NCBI GenBank assembly: GCA_015232395.1
Contig: JADFZT010000055.1
Location: 1 to 34,734, forward strand
Direction of reading: 5' to 3'
Length of the DNA: 34,734 nt
From: Magnetococcales bacterium
Lineage (GTDB): Bacteria > Pseudomonadota > Magnetococcia > Magnetococcales > JADFZT01
Positions 13,055 to 27,127 of the stretch are shown here, one piece after another. A program made the translations under genes and the position numbers. Numbering within the stretch: the stretch's first letter is position 1; each line of letters starts with the position of its first letter. The notes below the pieces were generated by a model. It was not told where the DNA came from. It ran no database searches and saw nothing but the letters and a program-made list of their open reading frames with translations.

Positions 13055-13151
13055 GGATCCTAGCCTGTCTTGATATGGGATTGGGGGGTACCCTCTCTCC
13101 GGCTGGCTCGGAGGGGGTTGATTCAGCATTTTTTTTCAAGGAATGAGGGGC

Positions 13152-15731
13152 ATGGGCAACAACAACGGCACGAAAAGCGCGCGAATTGGCAAAGGGGGCG
13201 CCATTTTGGGGTTGGCCCTGCTGCTGGGCACCCCGGGAATCGCCTCGGGATTTTCCCTGGGTGGCATTCAGGTGGATAGCACCCTGGGCGAACCCTTCCG
13301 AGGGAAAATTCCCCTCTCCATCCGCAAAGGGGAGGCGATGGAGGATGTGGGGGTGAGCATAGGCTCCGCCACTGATTATGAGCTGCTTCAGCTGCACCGC
13401 GCCAACGCCGTCATGCGGATTGATCCCAGGATCTCCCAGGAAAACGGCCAGTGGCGCATCACCTTTGAGGGAGAGACAGCCATACGGGAGCCTCTTTTCA
13501 ACCTGCTCCTGAAAACCTCCTCCGGCAAAGGGGCCCGCTTTCGTAACTATTCGATCTCCCTGGAGATCCCCCAGGCCCCCTCGCTACCCCCGCCCCAGCC
13601 AAAGGCAAGCCAATCCCTGACCTCCTCCTCCAAGGCCGTCTCTCAACCCGCCACATCCATTACGGTCGCTTCCGTCCCTCCCGTTTCAGAGGTGGAGCTG
13701 GTCTATCCCCACAATTATGGCCCGGTTCGACCCGGGGAGACCTTGCTCGGGATCGCCAATAAATTGGCCAAAGGGACCGATTTTACCCCTTCCCAGGTTT
13801 CCGTTGCGGTTTGGAAAAAAAATCAAAAAAAGTTCATTCATGGCAACATGAACGCCTTGCCGGCGGGGGTGGAGCTGGCGGTGCCGACCCCTGAGGAGAT
13901 GGGCGCTCTCAGCAACAATGAAGCCTGGCAGATTCGCAAGTCCGAGCGCCAAGCCTGGCTGGATCGGGCAGGCCCCGGACCCCAGCCTCGCAAAGAGAGC
14001 AAAAAGGTCGTCGCCAAGCCCGTCAGCAAACCAAAAGCCCCGGCAGCCCAGGAGAGCGGCTTTGAAATGCGCATGACAGTGGTGGGGGAGGGAAGTGAGG
14101 GGGCTGCCACCAACAAGGCTGCCACCGAAAAGGCTGACACCGAAATATTGGCTGCCACTCCAAAAATTTCAGCTCCCCCGGCAGCCGAGACCCCGGCAGC
14201 CACACAAGCGGTTTCTTCCGAAGCCCCCATCGCCACCGCTGAAAATGCCCCGGCTCCCGCAACGGTGATCTCTTCGGAACTTACAGCCAAGCTCATGGAG
14301 AGTGAGGCCAACACCCGAATTCTCTCCGGCCAACTGAGCACCCTCTCCGATAAACTGGAAAAGAGCGAATCAGAACGCAAGCGCCTGGAAAGCGATCTGG
14401 CCGCTATTAAAAAACAGCTCCAGGAGCTGGAAAAACGTGCCAAACAAGGGGGAGGGGATTCCATCCTGGAACTCTATCGGGATGAGCTGACCTATGGTGG
14501 GGCGGGACTCGTGGTGCTGTTCCTGGCTGGTTTGATGTCCCGCTTCAGTCGCCGCAAGAAAGAGGACCAGTGGGAAACCGATCCCGCTGAAGGGGACGAC
14601 GGATTGGGAACAGCGGCTGGTGTTGCGGCTGGCGTTGCGGCCACAGCCGTAGCCCCTGAGCCTGCCAGGTCAGAGGAGCCCTCGGGTGAGACTCTTTCCC
14701 ACGATCAGGGAGATGGCGCTGATGGGACAGATCCTCTCGCGCCCATGGATGCATCCGATTCCGGTATCGATCTGCTGGCCCCCATGACAGAACTTGAACC
14801 CGGTGAAGAGACCCTTACCTATACGGAAGCCCCGCCGGAGTGGGCCCAGGCGATGGATAGTGGCCCTGATGAGGATGAGGGTGGCGATGAAATCGACCAG
14901 CCCATGACAGATTTGGGCGGTGAAGAGACCCCGCCAGGCCACTCCCCAACGGATTTGGGTGGGGAAGAGGGGGGAAGCATTTTCGATCTGGATGCCGAGG
15001 CCACCCTGCCACCGGGTGAAGTGCCTGAACTGGATGATGGCATGGAGATCGATGGTGGGGCAGATCTGGATACCGGGTTGGACCTGGATGGTGGCCCTGA
15101 GCTGGATGGTGGAGCTGAGCTTTCTGCCGGATTGGATCTGGATGGCGGCCCTGAGCTGGATGGTGGTGCTGAACTTTCTGCCGGATTGGATCTGGATGGC
15201 AGCCCTGAGCTGGATGGGGATGCCGGTTTGGAAATCGGGATTGATCTGGATGCTGGTGCTGACATCGGCTCCGAAAATGCCGGCCTGGGTGCTCAGGAGA
15301 TCGGTGTGGAAGAGATCGACATGGATTCCGCCGATGCCATGGATGAAACCCTGCCCTTGGGCGCTGTGATCCAAGATCTGGGGGGAGAAACAGAAACGGA
15401 TGATCTCGACGCCGATAGCGCTGGAGATACCGATATGGAAACGATCTCCTTCGATCTGCCGGAAGCGGATGTCGCCGGAGAAAAAGGGGTGATGGAGCTT
15501 GATGCCGGCTCTGATGATGGCGGGTTGGATTTGGAAACCATCTCCTTTGGTGGTGCCGAGCTGGATGAGGCCAGTTCCAATAAATCCATTTTGGAACTCG
15601 ACGCCGATGATGCTGATGCCTTGGATCTGGATAAGGGAAGTGCTGGCGGTGCCCAAGCCAGTTCCGAGTTGGATGAGGATGACATCTCTCTGGAGTTGGT
15701 GTTGGATATCGATGAACATAAGAAGGATTGA
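13152..15731 (+). CDS. FimV/HubP-like polar protein with LysM domain
   Basis: This is an 859-residue FimV-like protein, a family of inner-membrane polar landmarks that organise pili, flagella or chemotaxis machinery. A signal peptide ends near GIASG (residue 33). The FimV N-terminal domain, FSLGGIQVDSTLGEPFRGKI onward, runs to about residue 140. A FimV-type LysM domain (YGPVRPGETLLGIANKLA to PAGVELAVP, about 187-247) should bind peptidoglycan. A coiled coil follows (about 375-430), then one membrane span (about 445-463) with an RRKK stop-transfer. A cytoplasmic tail of about 390 residues is extremely Asp/Glu-rich and holds the 18-residue repeats. No FimV C-terminal TPR motif is visible. ATG 13152 has AAGGA nine nt upstream; ATG 13143 lies too close to it. 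Confidence 0.88.
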   Translation: MGNNNGTKSARIGKGGAILGLALLLGTPGIASGFSLGGIQVDSTLGEPFRGKIPLSIRKGEAMEDVGVSIGSATDYELLQLHRANAVMRIDPRISQENGQWRITFEGETAIREPLFNLLLKTSSGKGARFRNYSISLEIPQAPSLPPPQPKASQSLTSSSKAVSQPATSITVASVPPVSEVELVYPHNYGPVRPGETLLGIANKLAKGTDFTPSQVSVAVWKKNQKKFIHGNMNALPAGVELAVPTPEEMGALSNNEAWQIRKSERQAWLDRAGPGPQPRKESKKVVAKPVSKPKAPAAQESGFEMRMTVVGEGSEGAATNKAATEKADTEILAATPKISAPPAAETPAATQAVSSEAPIATAENAPAPATVISSELTAKLMESEANTRILSGQLSTLSDKLEKSESERKRLESDLAAIKKQLQELEKRAKQGGGDSILELYRDELTYGGAGLVVLFLAGLMSRFSRRKKEDQWETDPAEGDDGLGTAAGVAAGVAATAVAPEPARSEEPSGETLSHDQGDGADGTDPLAPMDASDSGIDLLAPMTELEPGEETLTYTEAPPEWAQAMDSGPDEDEGGDEIDQPMTDLGGEETPPGHSPTDLGGEEGGSIFDLDAEATLPPGEVPELDDGMEIDGGADLDTGLDLDGGPELDGGAELSAGLDLDGGPELDGGAELSAGLDLDGSPELDGDAGLEIGIDLDAGADIGSENAGLGAQEIGVEEIDMDSADAMDETLPLGAVIQDLGGETETDDLDADSAGDTDMETISFDLPEADVAGEKGVMELDAGSDDGGLDLETISFGGAELDEASSNKSILELDADDADALDLDKGSAGGAQASSELDEDDISLELVLDIDEHKKD
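15075..15217 (+). repeat. 54-bp tandem repeat within the first fimV-like gene
   Basis: There are two full copies (15075-15128 and 15129-15182) and a 35-nt partial copy (15183-15217). Each full unit encodes the 18 residues GLDLDGGPELDGGAELSA with few changes. Differences between copies are mostly synonymous, so copy number has probably changed recently by slippage or recombination. Confidence 0.9.
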
Positions 15732-15737
15732 GTTTGC

Positions 15738-18629
15738 ATGAGCCAAAGGCAGGGATGTTTTGATTCCCGCTCATGGGTTGCCCCCAGAGGGTGGCGGATA
15801 GGGTGGATCTGGCTGGGGTTGGTCGTGCTGTGGGGAAATCCCCAGATGGCCGAAGCCTTTTCTCTGGGCTATTTGAAGGTTTTGAATGCCGACAAGGCCC
15901 CCTTTTCAGCTGAAATTCCCTATTGGCTCTCACCTGGCGAGCGCTTGGATAGGGTATGGGTCACTTTGGGGCGCGCGACTGATTATATCTCTGACCAGGA
16001 ACAAAACCGGGAGTGGGCAGGCTCCATCAAGGTGTTGGCGCCTGACAGGAAGGGGCAACCGGGGCGACTGCTGTTGCGGGGAAGGGAGGCGGCACCCAAC
16101 CATTTCGACACCCTGCTGGTGCGGGTGAGGATTGGTGAGGTCCACTATTTTCGCAACTATGCCTTTGCCCCTGAATTACAGCCCATCCTGACCTATTCTC
16201 CCACTGCCAAATCAAAGAGCAGCAACTCCTCCAGCTCCTCCAAAACCCAACGCCAACGCATTAAATCAACCCAACATACCCAGTCAACCCAGCCTGCCAA
16301 ATCAGCCCACACATCACAGACGAAGCCGATCCGACACAAACAACCAAGCTCGGCTTCCAGGAGTTCCAGCCATTCCGGACAAGTGACGAGCGTTCCCCAA
16401 TGGGTGGTCTGGTTTCGCGCCATCCAAAAGATGGATCCATGGCGTCTGGCAGCGGGGGCCGGGGGAGGTTTGTTGGTGGTGGGCGGGGTGGTAGCCCTGG
16501 CTCTTAGGATCAAACCCAGAGTTAAGCCCAAACGCAAAAAGAAGTCCAAGACCAAGCGCCGCAAAGAGCCTCAAATCCAGGCTGTCACTGAAAAAGTCCC
16601 AAGCCCCACTCCCCCCAAACAAGAGAACTCCCAGGCCGCTCCAGAGGGAGGGAAGGGCGCTGCCAAACCAGCTCGTCCAGATGCCGGGGAAGAGAAAAAG
16701 TCGGAAATCCCCCCCCTGATCCCGCTACTCTCGCCCACCCCCGCCCAAGGGGCTGAAAAAGGGGCTGGGGAAGAGGCCGGGGAGCCCATTCAATCTTCCG
16801 GGCTTACTGAAGAGAAACCTGAATCAGCCGCCTCTACAGCTCCTGATCCTGCCATTGATTCCGAACCACTCTCAGAGTCCGCTTCCGCCGACACGCCCCC
16901 TGAACCGGATGATTCAGACGAAAACCCACCGGCAACCGGGAGAGAGGTGCCATCAAAATTTGCTTTTGTAAAGCCCGACATGGCTCTTTCCACCGCTCCC
17001 TTTCCCATAGAGGCGGTGGATGGATCGGATGCTGAAGAAGCGAAAAATGGCGATATCCCACCCGTCTGGTCTCCTGGGAAAGAGGAGGAGGAACTCCAAT
17101 GGCAGGATGCCAGAGCTGAGACCGAAGAAGAGATTGGAGCTGAGACCGAAGAAGAGACCGAAGAAAAGGCCGGAGTTGAAGCCGTTGGAGGAGAGGCGCC
17201 AGCGGAATCGGATGGTCCTGATTGGGGGCTCTCCACAGAGGGGTCCCAAGCAGAAGAGGAATCCGATCTTGATCTGCCCCCTGGCACATCTGGAGAAGAA
17301 GAGGATGCCTTTGCAAGCCTCTCCCCTGGTTCAGCCGAGGAAGAGTCTGATGGGCTTTTGAGTCTTCCGGAAGCATCTTCCGAGGAAGAGTCTGATGAGT
17401 TTTTGAGCCTTCCGGAAACACCTTCCGAAGAAGAGCCTGACGGGTTTTTGAGTCTGCCGGATGTCGCTTCAGAGGATGGTGGGGAGGAGTCGTCACTGGA
17501 GTTGCCCGGTGGGGTGTCGGAAAACCATTCAGAGACAGAGATTGCGGCATTGTCCCTGCCGGAAACAGCCGCAGCCAAGCTTGGTGACGCTGACAAAGAC
17601 CCATCACCCATTTCCAAACCCACTCCCCCTGCCGGTGGGTCCCCTTCAGTAAATAGCCGGGAAGAGGGAGAGGATATCGAGGTTTTGGCTTTTGATCCTT
17701 CGATGTTTGACACACCCTCCCAAGGGAATGGTTCGGGGGGCTCTTCGATTCCGACAAGGGATGCCAAATCGAGCAGCTCTCAACCGGCAGATGTCGAGTC
17801 GATCCCCTTTAGCCTGGAGGCGTTGGGTAGCCCCGATGGGGGAGAAGGCTTCGGAACCGATGGGCGTGGAGACAAAGGTTCCCAGGATAATGGAACCCCA
17901 CCAGCACACTCCCTGGAAATGGTCTCCATGGGTGCTGCTGAAAATCTCAACTCTTCCACGCTGGTTGCAAAAAAGCCTGAGGTGAGCCAGCAACCCCCTG
18001 ATATTGAAAAGTGGAAAGCCCCCTCCCTGGATCTCCCTGAAATAGAATCACCCGAAGCCGCCTCCCCCGGTGGCGATATCGGAGCCAAATCCCAGGGACT
18101 TGAAGTACCCTCAGCCGCTCCCCCCCCGAAAAAAGCCACTGAAGAGATCGACGGGGATGGCTGGGAGGGCTCCGGTTCCATGGGGGGCTGGGATCCCCTG
18201 GAAGATGATTATGCCATCGGAGAGACCCCCGACACGGCCAGCACGACCCCTGAACGATCAAAGTCCAATGGCTCTTCTGCCAAAAAAGATCTCGACTGGG
18301 GCTCTGAAGGCATGGCCGATATCGATGACCTTTTGAACGCCGCCGCTCCCTCACTGGAGCCGGTTGTCGCCACTGCCAAGGAGGAGCCAAACCGTCAAAG
18401 CCGGGCCAAGCCCAAAGGGGATAAAGACGGGTTGGCCAGTCCATCCCTGGAAGAGATGCTGCAATCGGTGGATATGGTGTTGCAGGAGGATGTGGGGGAG
18501 AGTGATGCCGGGCCTGGCCCACAACCAGGCAGCCCGAAGACCGCCTCAAAAGAGAACGATTGGGAAGGGGGGGAGGCTGATTGGGGGGGGGCTGAATTGG
18601 ATGGTGGGGCTGATGGCGACGCCTCATGA
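15738..18629 (+). CDS. second FimV-like protein, without LysM
   Basis: This 963-residue protein is a diverged paralogue of the gene 6 nt upstream. It has a signal peptide (to about AEA, residue 40) and a FimV-type N-terminal domain (FSLGYLKVLNADKAPFSAEI onward). A Ser/Thr/Gln-rich basic linker (about 155-225) replaces the LysM domain. One membrane span (about 235-258, GGGLLVVGGVVALAL) is followed by a strongly basic KPKRKKKSKTKRRK stop-transfer. The tail of about 690 residues is cytoplasmic, low in complexity and acidic, with 15-residue repeats. The extreme C-terminus has short conserved-looking blocks such as LEEMLQSVDMVLQED. It overlaps the next gene by 4 nt (ATGA). A role as a polar or envelope scaffold is inferred from the family; the partner is unknown. 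Confidence 0.8.
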   Translation: MSQRQGCFDSRSWVAPRGWRIGWIWLGLVVLWGNPQMAEAFSLGYLKVLNADKAPFSAEIPYWLSPGERLDRVWVTLGRATDYISDQEQNREWAGSIKVLAPDRKGQPGRLLLRGREAAPNHFDTLLVRVRIGEVHYFRNYAFAPELQPILTYSPTAKSKSSNSSSSSKTQRQRIKSTQHTQSTQPAKSAHTSQTKPIRHKQPSSASRSSSHSGQVTSVPQWVVWFRAIQKMDPWRLAAGAGGGLLVVGGVVALALRIKPRVKPKRKKKSKTKRRKEPQIQAVTEKVPSPTPPKQENSQAAPEGGKGAAKPARPDAGEEKKSEIPPLIPLLSPTPAQGAEKGAGEEAGEPIQSSGLTEEKPESAASTAPDPAIDSEPLSESASADTPPEPDDSDENPPATGREVPSKFAFVKPDMALSTAPFPIEAVDGSDAEEAKNGDIPPVWSPGKEEEELQWQDARAETEEEIGAETEEETEEKAGVEAVGGEAPAESDGPDWGLSTEGSQAEEESDLDLPPGTSGEEEDAFASLSPGSAEEESDGLLSLPEASSEEESDEFLSLPETPSEEEPDGFLSLPDVASEDGGEESSLELPGGVSENHSETEIAALSLPETAAAKLGDADKDPSPISKPTPPAGGSPSVNSREEGEDIEVLAFDPSMFDTPSQGNGSGGSSIPTRDAKSSSSQPADVESIPFSLEALGSPDGGEGFGTDGRGDKGSQDNGTPPAHSLEMVSMGAAENLNSSTLVAKKPEVSQQPPDIEKWKAPSLDLPEIESPEAASPGGDIGAKSQGLEVPSAAPPPKKATEEIDGDGWEGSGSMGGWDPLEDDYAIGETPDTASTTPERSKSNGSSAKKDLDWGSEGMADIDDLLNAAAPSLEPVVATAKEEPNRQSRAKPKGDKDGLASPSLEEMLQSVDMVLQEDVGESDAGPGPQPGSPKTASKENDWEGGEADWGGAELDGGADGDAS
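17337..17471 (+). repeat. 45-bp tandem repeat within the second fimV-like gene
   Basis: Three copies at 17337-17381, 17382-17426 and 17427-17471 encode variants of EEESDGLLSLPEASS. Looser versions precede it (about 17250-17336), for a total near five. It is analogous to, but not the same as, the repeat of the upstream paralogue. Confidence 0.85.
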
Positions 18630-21627: not shown

Positions 21628-22848
21628 CTACCCTTGTCGAAACACTTCCAACACCCCGATTACCCGTTTGACCGGTGGAAACTGGTTGAATAAAAAGCCA
21701 TTTTTATCAAACCAAGGATCTTTTTCCAGCATTTCGCTGACTTCTTTTTCCTTGGACAGTGCCCGATCCACACCGATAATCAGGGGGGGCTTTTTTTTGG
21801 CCTGGCCCATGCTCTCCAGACGCCGGATAAGGGGAGCCTTGTGCCAAGCGTGAAAAAGTTCCAGATGGGTGAGGGTGCCATCGTCGTGCTGAAAGGAAAA
21901 ATCAGGGGCGGCGACCTCCTGTTTTCCCAGATCGAGGAGGGGAGCGTTGTTTTTGATGTGCCAGCCTTTGGCCCCCTTTTTAAAGCTTTTCTGAAACACC
22001 TCGAACTCTTCGGGGATATAGCCGCTCATCTGGGTCAGATGGGTCACCAGACCGCTTGTCTCATCCATGGAGAGGCTCAACTCCTGTCGCTGGCCCTTCA
22101 TTTTGATCCACGCCTCGATGCGCCAGCGGGACATCGCCACCAGAGCCGGGAAAAAAAGCGCCAGCTGGAAGCCATATTTGCGGGTATTTTGCAGCAGGCT
22201 CAAAGGGCCATCCAGGGTGAGATGATAGCTGCCATCCCCCATTTTTTGGATGCGCACCAGAAGCCGGTGAAAGCGCAGATAACGAAAAAGTTGGCGGCGC
22301 TTGCTCAAACCAGGCTCCTGAAATTCCACCTCCAGCCTGTCCGCATTCAAAAGCAGCCCCTGTACTTGAGCCATGTTGTAGCGATGGGCCAGGGCCTGGG
22401 GGGTGATGGTGCGAAATTGGGCCAGAGGTTGACGATCCGGCAGGTCTGAAAAGAGCCGCACCCCCAGCTGATCCGGATCGATGTTGACATCCCCGGCCAC
22501 TACCTCACGATATTTTTCCAGATCCCCCATGCCTTTTTCTGCCAGGCGTTTGGAGGCGGTCTCAAAAACCCCCAGTCGAAACAGATCCAACCCCTCTTCC
22601 GCCTCCTGAAAGTCACATCGATTGAGCAGGAGTTTATTGAGCCCCTTGGCGATCAGGGGGGAACGGTAGGCGTTCAGGATCGGCTGGATCACCTCTCCCA
22701 ACTCCTCCCGGCTCTGCCCTTTACCTTCGCTATATAGGCCGATCAACTCTTTGATCAGGTTGATGAGATTTTGATTTTTTGGATCCACAAAACGGGGAAG
22801 AATCCGACGGGATTGGGTGGCGTATCGGAGCAGGTCGCGGGTCAACAT
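21628..22848 (-). CDS. DUF790 / Bax1-type nuclease, partner of XPB helicase
   Basis: This 406-residue protein begins MLTRDLLRYATQSRRILPRF, the typical DUF790 opening. It contains the family's core stretch VRLFSDLPDRQPL followed by LAHRYNMAQVQGLLLNAD (Asp135 and Tyr157 are candidate active-site residues by position). The C-terminus has APDFSFQ and THLELFHAWHKAPL. The archaeal member, Bax1, is a structure-specific endonuclease that binds XPB helicase. Here the XPB-like gene lies 40 nt upstream on the same strand, so the pair is probably one operon and one complex. The frame stays open upstream to 23094, inside the helicase gene, but that extension is not family-like. The ribosome-binding site is weak, which suggests coupling to the helicase. 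The downstream sulfotransferase is convergent, 79 nt away. Confidence 0.85.
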   Translation of the reverse strand: MLTRDLLRYATQSRRILPRFVDPKNQNLINLIKELIGLYSEGKGQSREELGEVIQPILNAYRSPLIAKGLNKLLLNRCDFQEAEEGLDLFRLGVFETASKRLAEKGMGDLEKYREVVAGDVNIDPDQLGVRLFSDLPDRQPLAQFRTITPQALAHRYNMAQVQGLLLNADRLEVEFQEPGLSKRRQLFRYLRFHRLLVRIQKMGDGSYHLTLDGPLSLLQNTRKYGFQLALFFPALVAMSRWRIEAWIKMKGQRQELSLSMDETSGLVTHLTQMSGYIPEEFEVFQKSFKKGAKGWHIKNNAPLLDLGKQEVAAPDFSFQHDDGTLTHLELFHAWHKAPLIRRLESMGQAKKKPPLIIGVDRALSKEKEVSEMLEKDPWFDKNGFLFNQFPPVKRVIGVLEVFRQG

Positions 22849-22888
22849 GATGGAAAACAGCTTTGGTGGCCGAAGGGGAGGAGGGTGA

Positions 22889-24271
22889 TCACAGGGTCGC
22901 TTCTCCCCGTTGATAGGCGATATGCTGCCGACGCCGATCACTGGTGAAGGTTTCAGCGGTATCCTCTGAGACCAGTTCGTAGAGGGCGGCGACTTTTTCC
23001 TTGCCGGGCCTGAGAATGCGTCCGAGTCTTTGCACATGCTCCCGCACCGAGCCGCTGCCGGAGACGATGATGCCCACCGCCGCTTCCGGCACATCCACCC
23101 CTTCGTTCAACACCCGGGAGTTGACCATGCAGGAGATGGCCCCGGAGCGAAATGCCGCCATCAGGGCTTTGCGCTCCGGAGATTTGGTTTTGTGGGTGAT
23201 CACCGGCAGGAAGAAGGTCTCGCCGATGGTATAGGCCGTGGCATTGTCATCGGTAAAGAGCAGTATCCGCTCCCCCTGATGGCGTCGTAAAAGTGCCCAC
23301 ACTTGGCGCAGCTTGGCCCGGGAGGCTCTGGCCAGACGTTTTTGCATGCGGTAGGCCGCAAAGGCTTCCCGTCCCTCCCGGGTGCGGGCGCACACCATAA
23401 TGAACTGATTCCAACCATCCTTGCGGCTAAAATTGACCCCGCTATCCCGGGCAAATTGGCGATATTGAGCATAAGCGGCATCATAGGCCTCCCGCTCATC
23501 GGGGTCCAGCTGCACTGGTATTCGGTGGAGGTCGTAGGGGGCCAGATAGTCCCCTTCCAGGGCATCGATCTCCACCCGGAAGCAGATGGGGCCCAAAAGG
23601 TCAAAAAGCGCCTCCTCCTCACCGTCAGTACGCTCAGGGGTGGCGGTCAAACCCAGACGGAACGGCGCGATGGTCATCACTGCGGCCAGCCGGGTGGTCA
23701 AAGCGGGCAGGTGGTGGCACTCATCGCAGATCAAAAAGCCAAACCGATTGCCCAGCCGTTCCATGTGGATGAGAGCGGAGTCATAGGTGCTCACGGTGAT
23801 GGGTTCCAGCTGGTGCTCACCCCCTCCCATGAGGCCAATGGGCATCTGAAAAGCGGCGGCCAGTTGTTGGTGCCACTGGTGCAACAGGTCGATGGTCGGC
23901 ACCAAAATCAGGGTATCCCGACCGATCCGGCTGATGGCCAAGCGGGCGACCAGGGTTTTGCCCGATCCGGTGGGTAGCACCACCACCCCTCGCCCTTTGC
24001 TTTGGGACCAGGCTTGGAAGGCTTCCTGTTGGTGGGGTCGGGGCATAAACTCCCCGGGGGCTTCAAAACGATGGTTGGCAAATCCTTTGGCTTGATCTTC
24101 AAAAGGGATTTTCAGCCGATGCAGGGTGATGGCGAGGGGGCCATAATGGCGTGCCTCGGCGCGATAATCGCCGCTACGGTCATCCCATTTGAGATATTCC
24201 GCCACCGGTTCCAGTTCCTTGGGCTTGCCCGTAAGCCGCAAGGTGCCCTGGTCAAAGGAGAGGTGAACCAT
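22889..24271 (-). CDS. XPB/Ssl2-type superfamily 2 DNA helicase
   Basis: This 460-residue helicase is shaped like archaeal XPB. A short N-terminal damage-recognition-like domain (about 1-75) precedes HQQEAFQAWSQSKGRGVVVLP. Walker A is LPTGSGKT (Lys105) and motif II is DECHHLP (Asp183-Glu184). Motif III is TATPERTDG at 209-217, where the XPB RED element reads Arg-Thr-Asp. An insert with an alpha-helical thumb-like part spans about 255-310. The second RecA domain carries NSRVLNEGVDVPEA and motif VI QRLGRILRPGK (414-424). XPB enzymes unwind or translocate on DNA in repair or transcription. GGAG lies about 7 nt before the ATG. Immediately downstream is the DUF790 nuclease; a short ORF ends 1 nt upstream. 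Confidence 0.9.
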   Translation of the reverse strand: MVHLSFDQGTLRLTGKPKELEPVAEYLKWDDRSGDYRAEARHYGPLAITLHRLKIPFEDQAKGFANHRFEAPGEFMPRPHQQEAFQAWSQSKGRGVVVLPTGSGKTLVARLAISRIGRDTLILVPTIDLLHQWHQQLAAAFQMPIGLMGGGEHQLEPITVSTYDSALIHMERLGNRFGFLICDECHHLPALTTRLAAVMTIAPFRLGLTATPERTDGEEEALFDLLGPICFRVEIDALEGDYLAPYDLHRIPVQLDPDEREAYDAAYAQYRQFARDSGVNFSRKDGWNQFIMVCARTREGREAFAAYRMQKRLARASRAKLRQVWALLRRHQGERILLFTDDNATAYTIGETFFLPVITHKTKSPERKALMAAFRSGAISCMVNSRVLNEGVDVPEAAVGIIVSGSGSVREHVQRLGRILRPGKEKVAALYELVSEDTAETFTSDRRRQHIAYQRGEATL

Positions 24272-24272
24272 G

Positions 24273-24494
24273 TCAGGCTCCGGGAAAAGGGGAGTGGTGC
24301 ATGGGTGTTGTCATGGTCTGTTGGCTGGAAGCGGGGTGGATGGCATCTGTCGTCATGACCTGTTGGCTGGGAATCTTGTTGAATAAATTGTTAATTTCGT
24401 CCAGATGTGAAATGGCGTTGAATAATCTCCCGGTTCTTTTCCCCAATGATTGGATGTAATTGTTGACTTTTTTCGTCATAAGGGGGATGTTCAT
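24273..24494 (-). CDS. candidate small ORF directly before the XPB-like helicase
   Basis: A 73-codon frame starts at ATG 24494 (or ATG 24479) and its TGA lies one nt before the helicase ATG (TGACATG), a spacing typical of coupled genes. The N-terminal half (KKVNNYIQSLGKRTGRLF, then NAISHLDEINNLFNKI) is basic and helical-looking. The C-terminal half contains two SQQ-x-MTT copies produced by the DNA direct repeat. Ribosome-binding sites at both candidate starts are weak. It spans the divergent promoter region with the HD-GYP-like gene, so it may instead be untranslated regulatory DNA. I do not recognise the peptide. Confidence 0.3.
   Translation of the reverse strand: MNIPLMTKKVNNYIQSLGKRTGRLFNAISHLDEINNLFNKIPSQQVMTTDAIHPASSQQTMTTPMHHSPFPGA
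24310..24372. repeat. 21-bp direct repeat at 42-bp spacing in the divergent promoter region
   Basis: The copies at 24310-24330 (starting GTCATGGTCTGTTGGCTGGAA) and 24352-24372 match at 18 of 21 positions. The start-to-start distance is 42 bp, four turns of B-DNA, so both copies present the same face. It lies between the divergent helicase and HD-GYP-like genes and could be a tandem operator. It also overlaps the small ORF, where it encodes SQQ-x-MTT twice. Confidence 0.6.
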
Positions 24495-24530
24495 TCAGGA
24501 TTTGAAGTCCCCAGGGAAAGGTGCGACAGC

Positions 24531-26513
24531 ATGGCTGGAAATAACCCGACTGACGAGTCCCAGGATCAGCTTTACAGTCTGGATGATCCCGCTCTTCTCA
24601 ATAATATGAAGCTGGTCAAGGATGTCAAACGGTCAGACCGGGGAAACATCCTGCGAACCCGTGGCACAGAGCTTACTGCTGTGGTCGTGGAAGGGCTCAA
24701 ACGACGGGGGATCAAGGAGGTTTATGCCATACCGGTGGCCGCAGAAAAATTGACTGGTGCCACCGAAGAGATGGAAAAAATGTTCAATATTTTGGAATCG
24801 GTGGTTTCGGTTCCCGGCCAATCGGTTCAGGCAGCAGCTGAAACCTTTCAAAAAATGGAAGAGGTTCGGGCTCTGGAGGGGCTGGTCAAGACCCATATGC
24901 AGGAAATTTTCCATCTTTTCAATCCCCACGCTGCTGACGGCCTTATCCAGCTCCAGAGTCACCACCCCAACACCGCCAATCATTCCATCATCTCCGGTTT
25001 CAATGCCATGGCCATCGGCAAGGAGTTGGGCTGGGATGAGCCCAGAACCATCGAAGCGGCCATGGCCACCATGAAACACGATATCGGCAAGGTCAACGTC
25101 AAACTCGACACCTTGGATTGGCCGGGTCGCCTCAATAAAAAACAGTGGGCTGAGATCCAGCTCCACTCCCTTTTCGGTGGCCGGTTGCTGTTTCAGGGGC
25201 AGTGGGACAGCTCCGTTGTGACCGCTCTGACCCACCACGAATGGTATGCCAATGTCAAAGGCAAGGGGTATGGGGCGCTTACCCTTTTCCGGAAATATGT
25301 CGTCAAGGATATGGGCATTGAGATTGACGACTATCTGGCTACGGCTAAAAAGGCCGACCTGGAAATTCTCCACGTCAGCGCCATTGCCGATATGGTTTCA
25401 GCCCTGGAGGAGACGCGTTCCTACAAGGGCGAGTTGGTGCCCTTCAAGGTGCTGGTCATCATGAACAGCGATGCCGGACTGGGCCACTTCGAACCGAACA
25501 TCTATCGCGCCTGGCACCGGAGTTATTGTCGTAAACACCCCAACCTTCTCCCCCAGGGATTGCAGGTGCCCCTGCCAAGGGAAAAAGAGAAAAAGGTGTT
25601 CCAGAAGGGACGCGTCGTCAAGTTTGCCAAACCGCGGCCTTTTCTTTCCCTGCGGGATCTGAAAAGACTCAGGCTTCTGGAACCCTTGGCCCAGCGGCGG
25701 GTCGATCTGGATCGGCTGCGTCGCAATGGCGGCATCCTGAAAAAACAGCTGCTGGCCTATTTTGAAAAAGTAGGCCCCATTCCCAATCTTTCCGATGCCA
25801 ACCTCGAAAAAATGGGGGTCAAACCCCTCAAGAAGCAAGCTGTTTTGGAAAATCAGATGATCGGCCTGGACGTCAAGGAATCCCGCTTTTCCTTCGATGA
25901 GCTGGAAGAGTCAGGGCTTTTGCAAAAGATGAAATGCCGCATGTTTGACATCGACCTGGTACGTAAGGAGGGGGGTATTTCCCTGGATCGTCTGGTCAAA
26001 CGGGATGTGCAGATCAACTGGAAAAAACTGGAAAAACTGGGTATCGACCCCAACAAACAGCAGCAGATCACCCTGCCAGCCTTTGAAGAGCGTTTGACTT
26101 TGGCAGATCTGGAAAAGCTGGGATATACCAAAAAGAAACTACACGATTTTGGGGTGTACGACCGTTTGGAGCAGCAGAGAGGCGGGCTGCGGCTGGATTA
26201 TCTGGCCGAAAAGGGGATACATCCGAAAAAAACCGAGCTGCGGGAAAAGGGTATCAAAACGGAACAGAAAATTTTTTATGACATTCTGGTGGTGGAGAGC
26301 CTGGACCGAACCCGGGGCAGATTTGCCATCATGCGGGAGAGAGAAGAGTTTGCCGATCTGGAAAAAATCGCTGCATTAGGGGAGTTGGATACCCTGCAAT
26401 CGTTTTTGTATCACAAGATTGGCATCGTTGAGATCGACTTTTCAGATGTATTGGATCTGCCAGCCTCTCTGGATAGTCTGGAAATGGGAGATCACTGGCG
26501 GGTCTCTGCCTGA
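24531..26513 (+). CDS. HD-GYP-type phosphodiesterase variant with repeat-rich C-terminus
   Basis: This 660-residue soluble protein opens with the small domain common before HD-GYP modules (LVKDVKRSDRGNILRTRGTELTA). The HD-GYP-like domain keeps metal-ligand candidates: His151, His183-Asp184 in MKHDIGKVNV, Lys187, His212 and His235-His236 in THHEWY. The GYP triplet reads GYG (246-248). The trailing SAIADMVSALEETRSYK (about 283-299) and GHFEP align with the response regulator later in this window. So cyclic-di-GMP hydrolysis is possible but altered. Residues 370-580 are unlike known HD-GYP proteins: repeated pieces of the form L-x-x-L-x-x-x-G-(I/V/Y). ATG 24531 has GGAAAGG upstream; a TTG at 24450 is less likely. 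The stop overlaps the convergent vanZ-like gene by 22 nt. Confidence 0.8.
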   Translation: MAGNNPTDESQDQLYSLDDPALLNNMKLVKDVKRSDRGNILRTRGTELTAVVVEGLKRRGIKEVYAIPVAAEKLTGATEEMEKMFNILESVVSVPGQSVQAAAETFQKMEEVRALEGLVKTHMQEIFHLFNPHAADGLIQLQSHHPNTANHSIISGFNAMAIGKELGWDEPRTIEAAMATMKHDIGKVNVKLDTLDWPGRLNKKQWAEIQLHSLFGGRLLFQGQWDSSVVTALTHHEWYANVKGKGYGALTLFRKYVVKDMGIEIDDYLATAKKADLEILHVSAIADMVSALEETRSYKGELVPFKVLVIMNSDAGLGHFEPNIYRAWHRSYCRKHPNLLPQGLQVPLPREKEKKVFQKGRVVKFAKPRPFLSLRDLKRLRLLEPLAQRRVDLDRLRRNGGILKKQLLAYFEKVGPIPNLSDANLEKMGVKPLKKQAVLENQMIGLDVKESRFSFDELEESGLLQKMKCRMFDIDLVRKEGGISLDRLVKRDVQINWKKLEKLGIDPNKQQQITLPAFEERLTLADLEKLGYTKKKLHDFGVYDRLEQQRGGLRLDYLAEKGIHPKKTELREKGIKTEQKIFYDILVVESLDRTRGRFAIMREREEFADLEKIAALGELDTLQSFLYHKIGIVEIDFSDVLDLPASLDSLEMGDHWRVSA

Positions 26514-27127
26514 ACTTTTATATCCCCAACGGGAAAAAGAAACCGCCCCCACCAAAGTCCCAGCCCCCCACCCAGCGTATTCATCGCCACATCCCGAATA
26601 TCCCAATAGCGGGTAGGTAAAAACCACTGGATGATTTCGTCCGTCAAGCCCGCCAAAAAAAGCCACAACAGTGCCACCATGAGATCCCGAAACCCATGGC
26701 GCTCCAGAGTACGGAAAACAAGCACTCCGAGAATGGCATATTGCAAAAAATGAATCCGCTCTACCGGCTTATCCACGGTGGCCGCAATCACAAGAATGGC
26801 AAGGGTTGGCAGCAGAAGGGGAAACACGCTTGGAGCCTTTTCCCTTAGGCTGCTGTTCATCTGATAGAGCCTGTAAAAGGCCCCCAGCAAGGCCAATATG
26901 AGAACCGTATTCACCCCCCAACCAAACGTTTCAGGCCCTATGACGGCAAAAAAATAGTGTACGGCAACAGGTGTGAGAGGCAGCGTGAGATAGATCAGCC
27001 CCAGATAGAGCGCGATCCCGATCCAGAGGCGTGGGTGTTGACGAAAAGTGTTGGGGAGAGTCATTTTGAAAGTTTGCCACGATCCTGACCGGGGAGGAAG
27101 ACCGACTCTTTCCCGTTCAGCTGGCAT
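26492..27127 (-). CDS. VanZ-like family membrane protein
   Basis: This protein has up to 211 residues and about five membrane spans. The VanZ hallmark is near the C-terminus: AGLTDEIIQWFLPTRYWDIR followed by DVAMNTLGGGLGLWWG. Relatives include the teicoplanin-resistance accessory VanZ, but most members have no assigned function. The start at ATG 27127 overlaps the stop of the upstream gene (TGATG), consistent with coupled translation. An internal ATG at 27064 (MTLPNTFRQH) would remove a hydrophilic 21-residue leader and is a fair alternative. The 3' end overlaps the convergent HD-GYP-like gene. Confidence 0.8.
   Translation of the reverse strand: MPAERERVGLPPRSGSWQTFKMTLPNTFRQHPRLWIGIALYLGLIYLTLPLTPVAVHYFFAVIGPETFGWGVNTVLILALLGAFYRLYQMNSSLREKAPSVFPLLLPTLAILVIAATVDKPVERIHFLQYAILGVLVFRTLERHGFRDLMVALLWLFLAGLTDEIIQWFLPTRYWDIRDVAMNTLGGGLGLWWGRFLFPVGDIKVQAETRQ

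Follow-up and report, generated by a model that had tools for sequence, protein, structure and literature searches.

Archaeal-type XPB helicase and Bax1 nuclease genes paired in a Magnetococcales bacterium that also encodes UvrABC

The stretch of DNA analysed here, a Magnetococcales contig of 34,734 nucleotides (hereafter the window), carries a helicase gene and a nuclease gene side by side and raises the question whether a bacterium can encode an XPB–Bax1 helicase–nuclease of the archaeal type, and what such a pair would do in a cell. In archaea, XPB binds where duplex meets bubble and separates the strands with its thumb, while Bax1 makes its cut close to that junction (PMC7293015, PMC7672443), and the Bax1 enzymes vary in strand choice and in their effect on XPB (PMC7293015). 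According to a 2012 study (PMC3353954), hardly any proteobacteria or cyanobacteria, if indeed any, possess XPB, and a bacterial complex of XPB with Bax1 had yet to be identified; as late as 2026 a review describes XPB–Bax1 as archaeal (PMC13024598). In D. radiodurans, DR_A0131 has been catalogued as XPB/ERCC3 (PMC2587704). A search of the open literature, with subscription papers outside its reach, returned no later paper on a bacterial XPB–Bax1 pair.

Both genes were confirmed on the minus strand, with the helicase gene upstream. The helicase gene (22889..24271) encodes 460 amino acids and the nuclease gene (21628..22848) 406 amino acids, with an intergenic spacer of 40 nt between them (22849..22888) where many relatives have a short overlap of both genes instead. 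An earlier note on this DNA had seen a longer DUF790 frame, which extends without a stop to 23094, but homology begins only at the ATG at 22848. The gene therefore spans 21628-22848 and does not overlap with XPB. The remainder of the window encodes seryl-tRNA synthetase, gyrA, purB and genes of the leucine and aspartate pathways, as well as FimV-like, CbiQ, VanZ and sensor genes. These surroundings are core chromosome with housekeeping genes, and no mobile element, prophage or defence island was seen in the window. The gene adjoining XPB is divergently transcribed (24450-26513, plus strand) and encodes a 687-aa protein with weak similarity to HD-type phosphodiesterases, repeated C-terminal segments and no Pfam family; its relatives lie close to the pair in just two other genomes. 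A VanZ-like gene (26492-27127, minus strand) is located close to XPB or Bax1 in seven examined Magnetococcales loci, window included, and was rejected as a third partner because it recurs in only these seven. Further away, 13143-18629 (plus strand) encodes an 862-aa FimV-like protein followed by a very acidic, low-complexity protein of 963 aa without a Pfam match.

The helicase has all the elements of an archaeal-type XPB, namely an SF2 core with the XPB C-terminal lobe, a damage-recognition domain (DRD), a RED motif and a thumb with an aromatic wedge. Pfam matches were obtained to XPB_DRD (57.2 bits, cut-off 26), ERCC3_RAD25_C (70 bits, cut-off 27) and ResIII (94 bits). Among solved structures, phmmer matched the protein nearly end to end to AfXPB (6p66_A/2fwr_A, E 1.7e-104) and colinearly, thumb included, to StXPB2 (6p4f_A, E 1e-91). 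The Pfam domains and the AfXPB match thus bear out the proposal that the helicase is an XPB, and not a member of another SF2 branch. The DRD comprises residues 4-61 (24089..24262, minus strand, as are all features of the two genes). Walker A (LPTGSGKT, residues 99-106; 23954..23977) has G104 and K105 in all 97 relatives aligned, and the same holds for D183, E184 and H186 of motif II (DECH, residues 183-186; 23714..23725) and for Q414, R415, G417 and R418 of motif VI (QRLGR, residues 414-418; 23018..23032). A RED-like motif, R214-T215-D216 (23624..23632), aligns to R205-D206-D207 of StXPB, which is itself RDD (chain index = paper number + 1); its R-x-D form recurs in the relatives, with R in 91/97 and D in 88/97. 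The thumb (ThM, about residues 255-310; 23342..23509) aligns without gaps to AfXPB and StXPB, and W287 aligns with the StXPB wedge F278 at a position that is aromatic in 97/97. The protein falls below the actinobacterial XPB equivalog NF045503 (229 bits, cut-off 610). What looked like in-frame stops in the XPB of three relatives proved to be the ordinary stop at the C-terminus, which the search had read past. Several cyanobacterial XPBs (L130-L139) have a C-terminal extension and measure about 490-530 aa, compared with about 460 aa elsewhere.

The downstream protein was assigned to DUF790/Bax1 in the earlier note, and family, profile and fold agree on this placement. It matches Pfam DUF790 with 247 bits (cut-off 28.8) and the NCBIfam models of endonuclease Bax1 with E 5e-27 and 6e-23, under the equivalog cut-offs. 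Its scores on the narrow archaeal Bax1 equivalogs NF053695 and NF053694 are 94.8 and 81.4 bits versus 500, which bars the narrow archaeal label only and not membership of the DUF790/Bax1 family. Among solved structures, phmmer matched it to 6p4f_B (E 4.8e-16) and a nuclease profile matched Bax1 chains with E 2e-54 to 3e-48 (8gy8_A 1.7e-54; 6p66_B 2.1e-50); sequence and profile searches returned Bax1 chains and nothing else. The entry 8gy8 is Bax1 from P. furiosus; its deposited molecule name is IF-2-like. An AlphaFold2 model of the nuclease reached pLDDT 93.6 and pTM 0.86, and Foldseek against the PDB gave eight significant matches, all Bax1 (E 5e-23 to 3e-20, TM normalized to the query 0.64-0.70), with about 21-22% identity to the archaeal chains in the structure alignments. 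Judged by sequence, the family matches of both proteins are far beyond chance.

The main Bax1 nuclease site looks largely intact. The residue aligned with catalytic D305 of AfBax1 is D316 (21901..21903), conserved in 60/60 relatives, and AfBax1 E318 corresponds to E330 (21859..21861), which is E in 56/60 and D in 4/60. AfBax1 E275, the first glutamate of the nuclease motif, is not kept in place, and the position is E in 14/60. A second, N-terminal site has been described for A. fulgidus, at the XPB interface and with a role for D133 (PMC7293015). In the alignment to 6p66_B this residue is D135 (22444..22446; D in 60/60) and AfBax1 E135 corresponds to P137, so that the acid is not kept; as aligned, the second site is only half there.

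The earlier note regarded such a pair as unusual in a bacterium and proposed a survey of co-occurrence as a check. The survey, set as a test beforehand, gave a strong result: co-occurrence is conserved. DUF790 was found in 37/41 Magnetococcales genomes, including 26/26 of high quality, and the same 37 genomes carry a full XPB match, so that both genes are present in 37/41. The remaining four comprise one 69%-complete genome with a partial XPB only and three with neither gene. One of these three (G010, 93% complete, 8% contaminated) has UvrC and lacks XPB and Bax1, which may be a joint loss. In a phylum-wide sample of Pseudomonadota (n=299), DUF790 was found in 27 genomes, all Magnetococcales, and in none of the about 269 genomes sampled outside the order; a scan of a genome collection found sporadic occurrences of the pair in other Pseudomonadota. 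The same scan with an XPB alignment recovered 459 relatives, the best 80 of which span at least ten bacterial phyla, many of these 80 being metagenome bins and some maybe mislabelled. The groups among these 80 are Magnetococcales, Lentisphaerota, Verrucomicrobiota, Fibrobacterota, Myxococcota, Acidobacteriota, Poribacteria, Planctomycetota, Bacteroidota, Gemmatimonadota, Latescibacterota, Cyanobacteriota and others. The rarity claimed for the pair thus stands for the sampled Pseudomonadota outside Magnetococcales but not for bacteria as a whole, and within the order the pair is general.

The presence of the two genes is tied together even where the genes are apart. Bax1 lies in the XPB locus in 66 of the best 80 relatives and elsewhere in the genome in 13 of the other 14. 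Of 146 cyanobacteria, 55 have DUF790 and 54 have XPB; 53 have both, two only Bax1, one only XPB and 90 neither, counts that, like the other co-occurrence counts, are inflated by phylogenetic clustering. The genes are neighbours in 23 of the 53 and unlinked in about 30. In at least three Magnetococcales genomes (G003, G026, G040) XPB and Bax1 lie on separate long contigs and both are kept. Linkage does not explain these counts. At other loci the arrangement varies: gene order is reversed in L106:2769-5350, with Bax1 upstream of XPB, and in two Pyrinomonadaceae (L135, L141) Bax1 adjoins XPB on the opposite strand. Plasmids of Deinococcus and of haloarchaea also carry an XPB–Bax1 pair.

Unlinked genes in part of Magnetococcales and in many cyanobacteria are what would be expected if XPB and Bax1 were two co-inherited repair proteins that do not form a complex. 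Other observations argue against this explanation, starting with the near-perfect co-occurrence of the unlinked genes itself. Repeatedly, in unrelated phyla, the stop of one gene and the start of the other overlap by 7 to 14 nt. Distances in the XPB and Bax1 trees correlate (r 0.79 over 77 pairs, with 0/999 permutations as high), a correlation that, like the common distribution, comes in part from shared species history. A joint model was built for a Magnetococcales relative (L006) in which the two genes lie in one frame, with the intervening TGA codons set to Trp as a modelling device only; read-through in the cell is not claimed. The alignment for this model had 13 joined rows and otherwise unpaired ones, and plasmid rows were left out of all structure-model alignments. 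The model, of 899 residues and run without a negative control, reached pLDDT 89.1 and pTM 0.79, with a disordered linker at 456–487. By our own estimate from the definition of the score, a pTM near 0.5 would be the outcome for two unrelated halves as large as these. Since the joint model lies above this value, a defined mutual placement of the two proteins is likely, and the model is consistent with an XPB–Bax1 interface. In addition, the archaeal homologues form stable heterodimers (PMC7293015). We therefore consider it unlikely that the two proteins act without forming a complex. Of the complex proposed in the earlier note, the partnership of XPB and Bax1 is well supported by co-occurrence, gene overlaps and the joint model, while the physical heterodimer is something we infer.

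The trees suggest how Magnetococcales came by the pair. In the XPB tree the Magnetococcales sequences make up a single clade (SH-aLRT 100), which is joined (98) by Lentisphaerota, one Verrucomicrobiota and one Fibrobacterota sequence and stands apart from other Pseudomonadota; in the Bax1 tree they share a group with Lentisphaerota and Poribacteria. Both are quick trees without bootstrap. As far as can be read from these sequences, this fits a single acquisition before Magnetococcales diversified, followed by vertical inheritance of both genes. The XPB of L062 is identical to that of G007, both from Magnetococcales. Across phyla, XPB and Bax1 of a Myxococcus locus (L076) and a Comamonas locus (L086) are nearly identical, which points either to contamination or to a recent joint transfer of both genes. 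The Bax1 of a Zetaproteobacteria bin (L107:5373-6611) has a very long branch of 2.0 changes per site and still matches DUF790 with 122 bits.

An SF2 helicase together with a PD-(D/E)XK nuclease is a frequent architecture of defence systems, and the pair could accordingly be an anti-phage or anti-plasmid module. The helicase is generically similar to PADLOC PbeA and others, and restriction-modification genes lie about 1 kb from a Deinococcus plasmid copy of the pair. Against such a role, the nuclease has no PADLOC match, the genes around the pair in the window are housekeeping ones, and the loci examined show neither a recurrent partner nor an island. No third conserved gene was found across 84 loci; a third gene cluster at these loci consisted of antisense shadow frames. 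As to a viral origin, there was no match in phage records and one weak viral contig, so the pair is essentially absent from viral sequences. Finally, its presence in all high-quality Magnetococcales genomes and vertical inheritance there do not suit a defence module. Defence, one of the roles considered in the earlier note, is thus very improbable.

The note had also assumed UvrABC as the usual repair background of a proteobacterial host, and this proved correct, as the same genome has genes for UvrA (1410 bits), UvrB (1055 bits) and UvrC at other places. UvrC occurs in 38/41 Magnetococcales genomes, and a role of Bax1 as replacement of UvrC is thereby ruled out. We consider it probable that the two-gene module encodes a structure-specific, archaeal-type XPB–Bax1 helicase–nuclease heterodimer that works beside UvrABC in chromosomal maintenance and not in defence. 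XPB would engage distorted, bubble or forked DNA and travel on the duplex by its two RecA lobes, with the thumb and its aromatic wedge W287 separating the strands. Bax1 would dock at the thumb/HD2 side of XPB, and its PD-(D/E)XK/VRR-Nuc-like domain (D316, E330) would then incise the junction of single and double strand. The pair would in this way serve maintenance of the chromosome at lesions, stalled forks or bubbles next to an intact UvrABC. The activity and substrate supposed here are taken from the archaeal enzymes, and the cellular role and pathway are likewise suggested by analogy. Points that count against this reading are the acids of two archaeal sites that are only partly conserved, the differences among the archaeal Bax1 enzymes themselves and the absence of an SOS-type box ahead of XPB at the loci searched.

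Because UvrABC already covers excision repair, the pair may mainly process replication forks, recombination intermediates or R-loops instead of excising lesions. The Uvr genes of the window's genome and the UvrC genes of the order speak for this, as does the preference of archaeal XPB–Bax1 for bubbles and forks (PMC7672443), but the loci examined showed no recombination or replication genes linked to the pair. We give it somewhat less than an even chance, as a narrower version of the heterodimer in chromosomal maintenance with which its probability overlaps. Regarding regulation, none of six patterns of SOS-type boxes recurs upstream of XPB at 27 Magnetococcales loci, and dyads above shuffle level in this region look like common coding sequence of close relatives.

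The XPB–Bax1 pair represents a machine that is already known, in a bacterial setting that is widespread and has drawn little notice, and not a new kind of system; its bacterial spread appears under-described. Tentatively, we suggest that a large share of bacterial diversity (Magnetococcales, Cyanobacteria, Myxococcota, Acidobacteriota, Planctomycetota, Lentisphaerota, Deinococcus and others) may have kept a second, UvrABC-independent pathway of damage or fork processing that, according to the literature searched, is unstudied in bacteria. If the bacterial pair works like the archaeal one, Deinococcus and cyanobacteria, which also have UvrABC, would be tractable hosts for gene deletion, and this would address the role of XPB–Bax1 in the cell, a question left open by the archaeal work. 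It also bears on how far an XPB-based machine for opening and cutting DNA has spread beyond archaea and eukaryotes.

Compared with known systems, the pair most resembles the archaeal XPB–Bax1 of A. fulgidus (6p66) and Sulfurisphaera tokodaii (6p4f/6p4o/6p4w). It shares with these both families, the pairing of the genes, the domain order of DRD, HD1 with RED-like motif, thumb and HD2, a Bax1 with nuclease domain, and the key catalytic D and E, and the joint model would be consistent with their complex. In contrast to them, its host is a bacterium with all of UvrABC, its genes are unlinked in some genomes, and its Bax1 has P137 in place of the second acid at the N-terminal site and is only about 21-22% identical. 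The XPB of Mycobacterium and other actinobacteria (NF045503) has the XPB helicase core in common with that of the window, but has a longer N-terminal domain, no thumb and no known Bax1 partner (PMC3353954), whereas the window's XPB has DRD, thumb and Bax1. UvrABC is alike in combining unwinding and incision in excision repair; UvrC, however, belongs to another nuclease family than Bax1, and the UvrABC genes of this genome lie apart from the pair. Lastly, the nuclease belongs to the same family as COG3372/DUF790 of archaea and cyanobacteria, for which a link with COG1061 (SSL2) helicases had been pointed out as early as 2005 (PMC1189080). This family was described there as almost exclusively archaeal and cyanobacterial, whereas here it turns up in a wide range of bacterial phyla and as a general feature of Magnetococcales.
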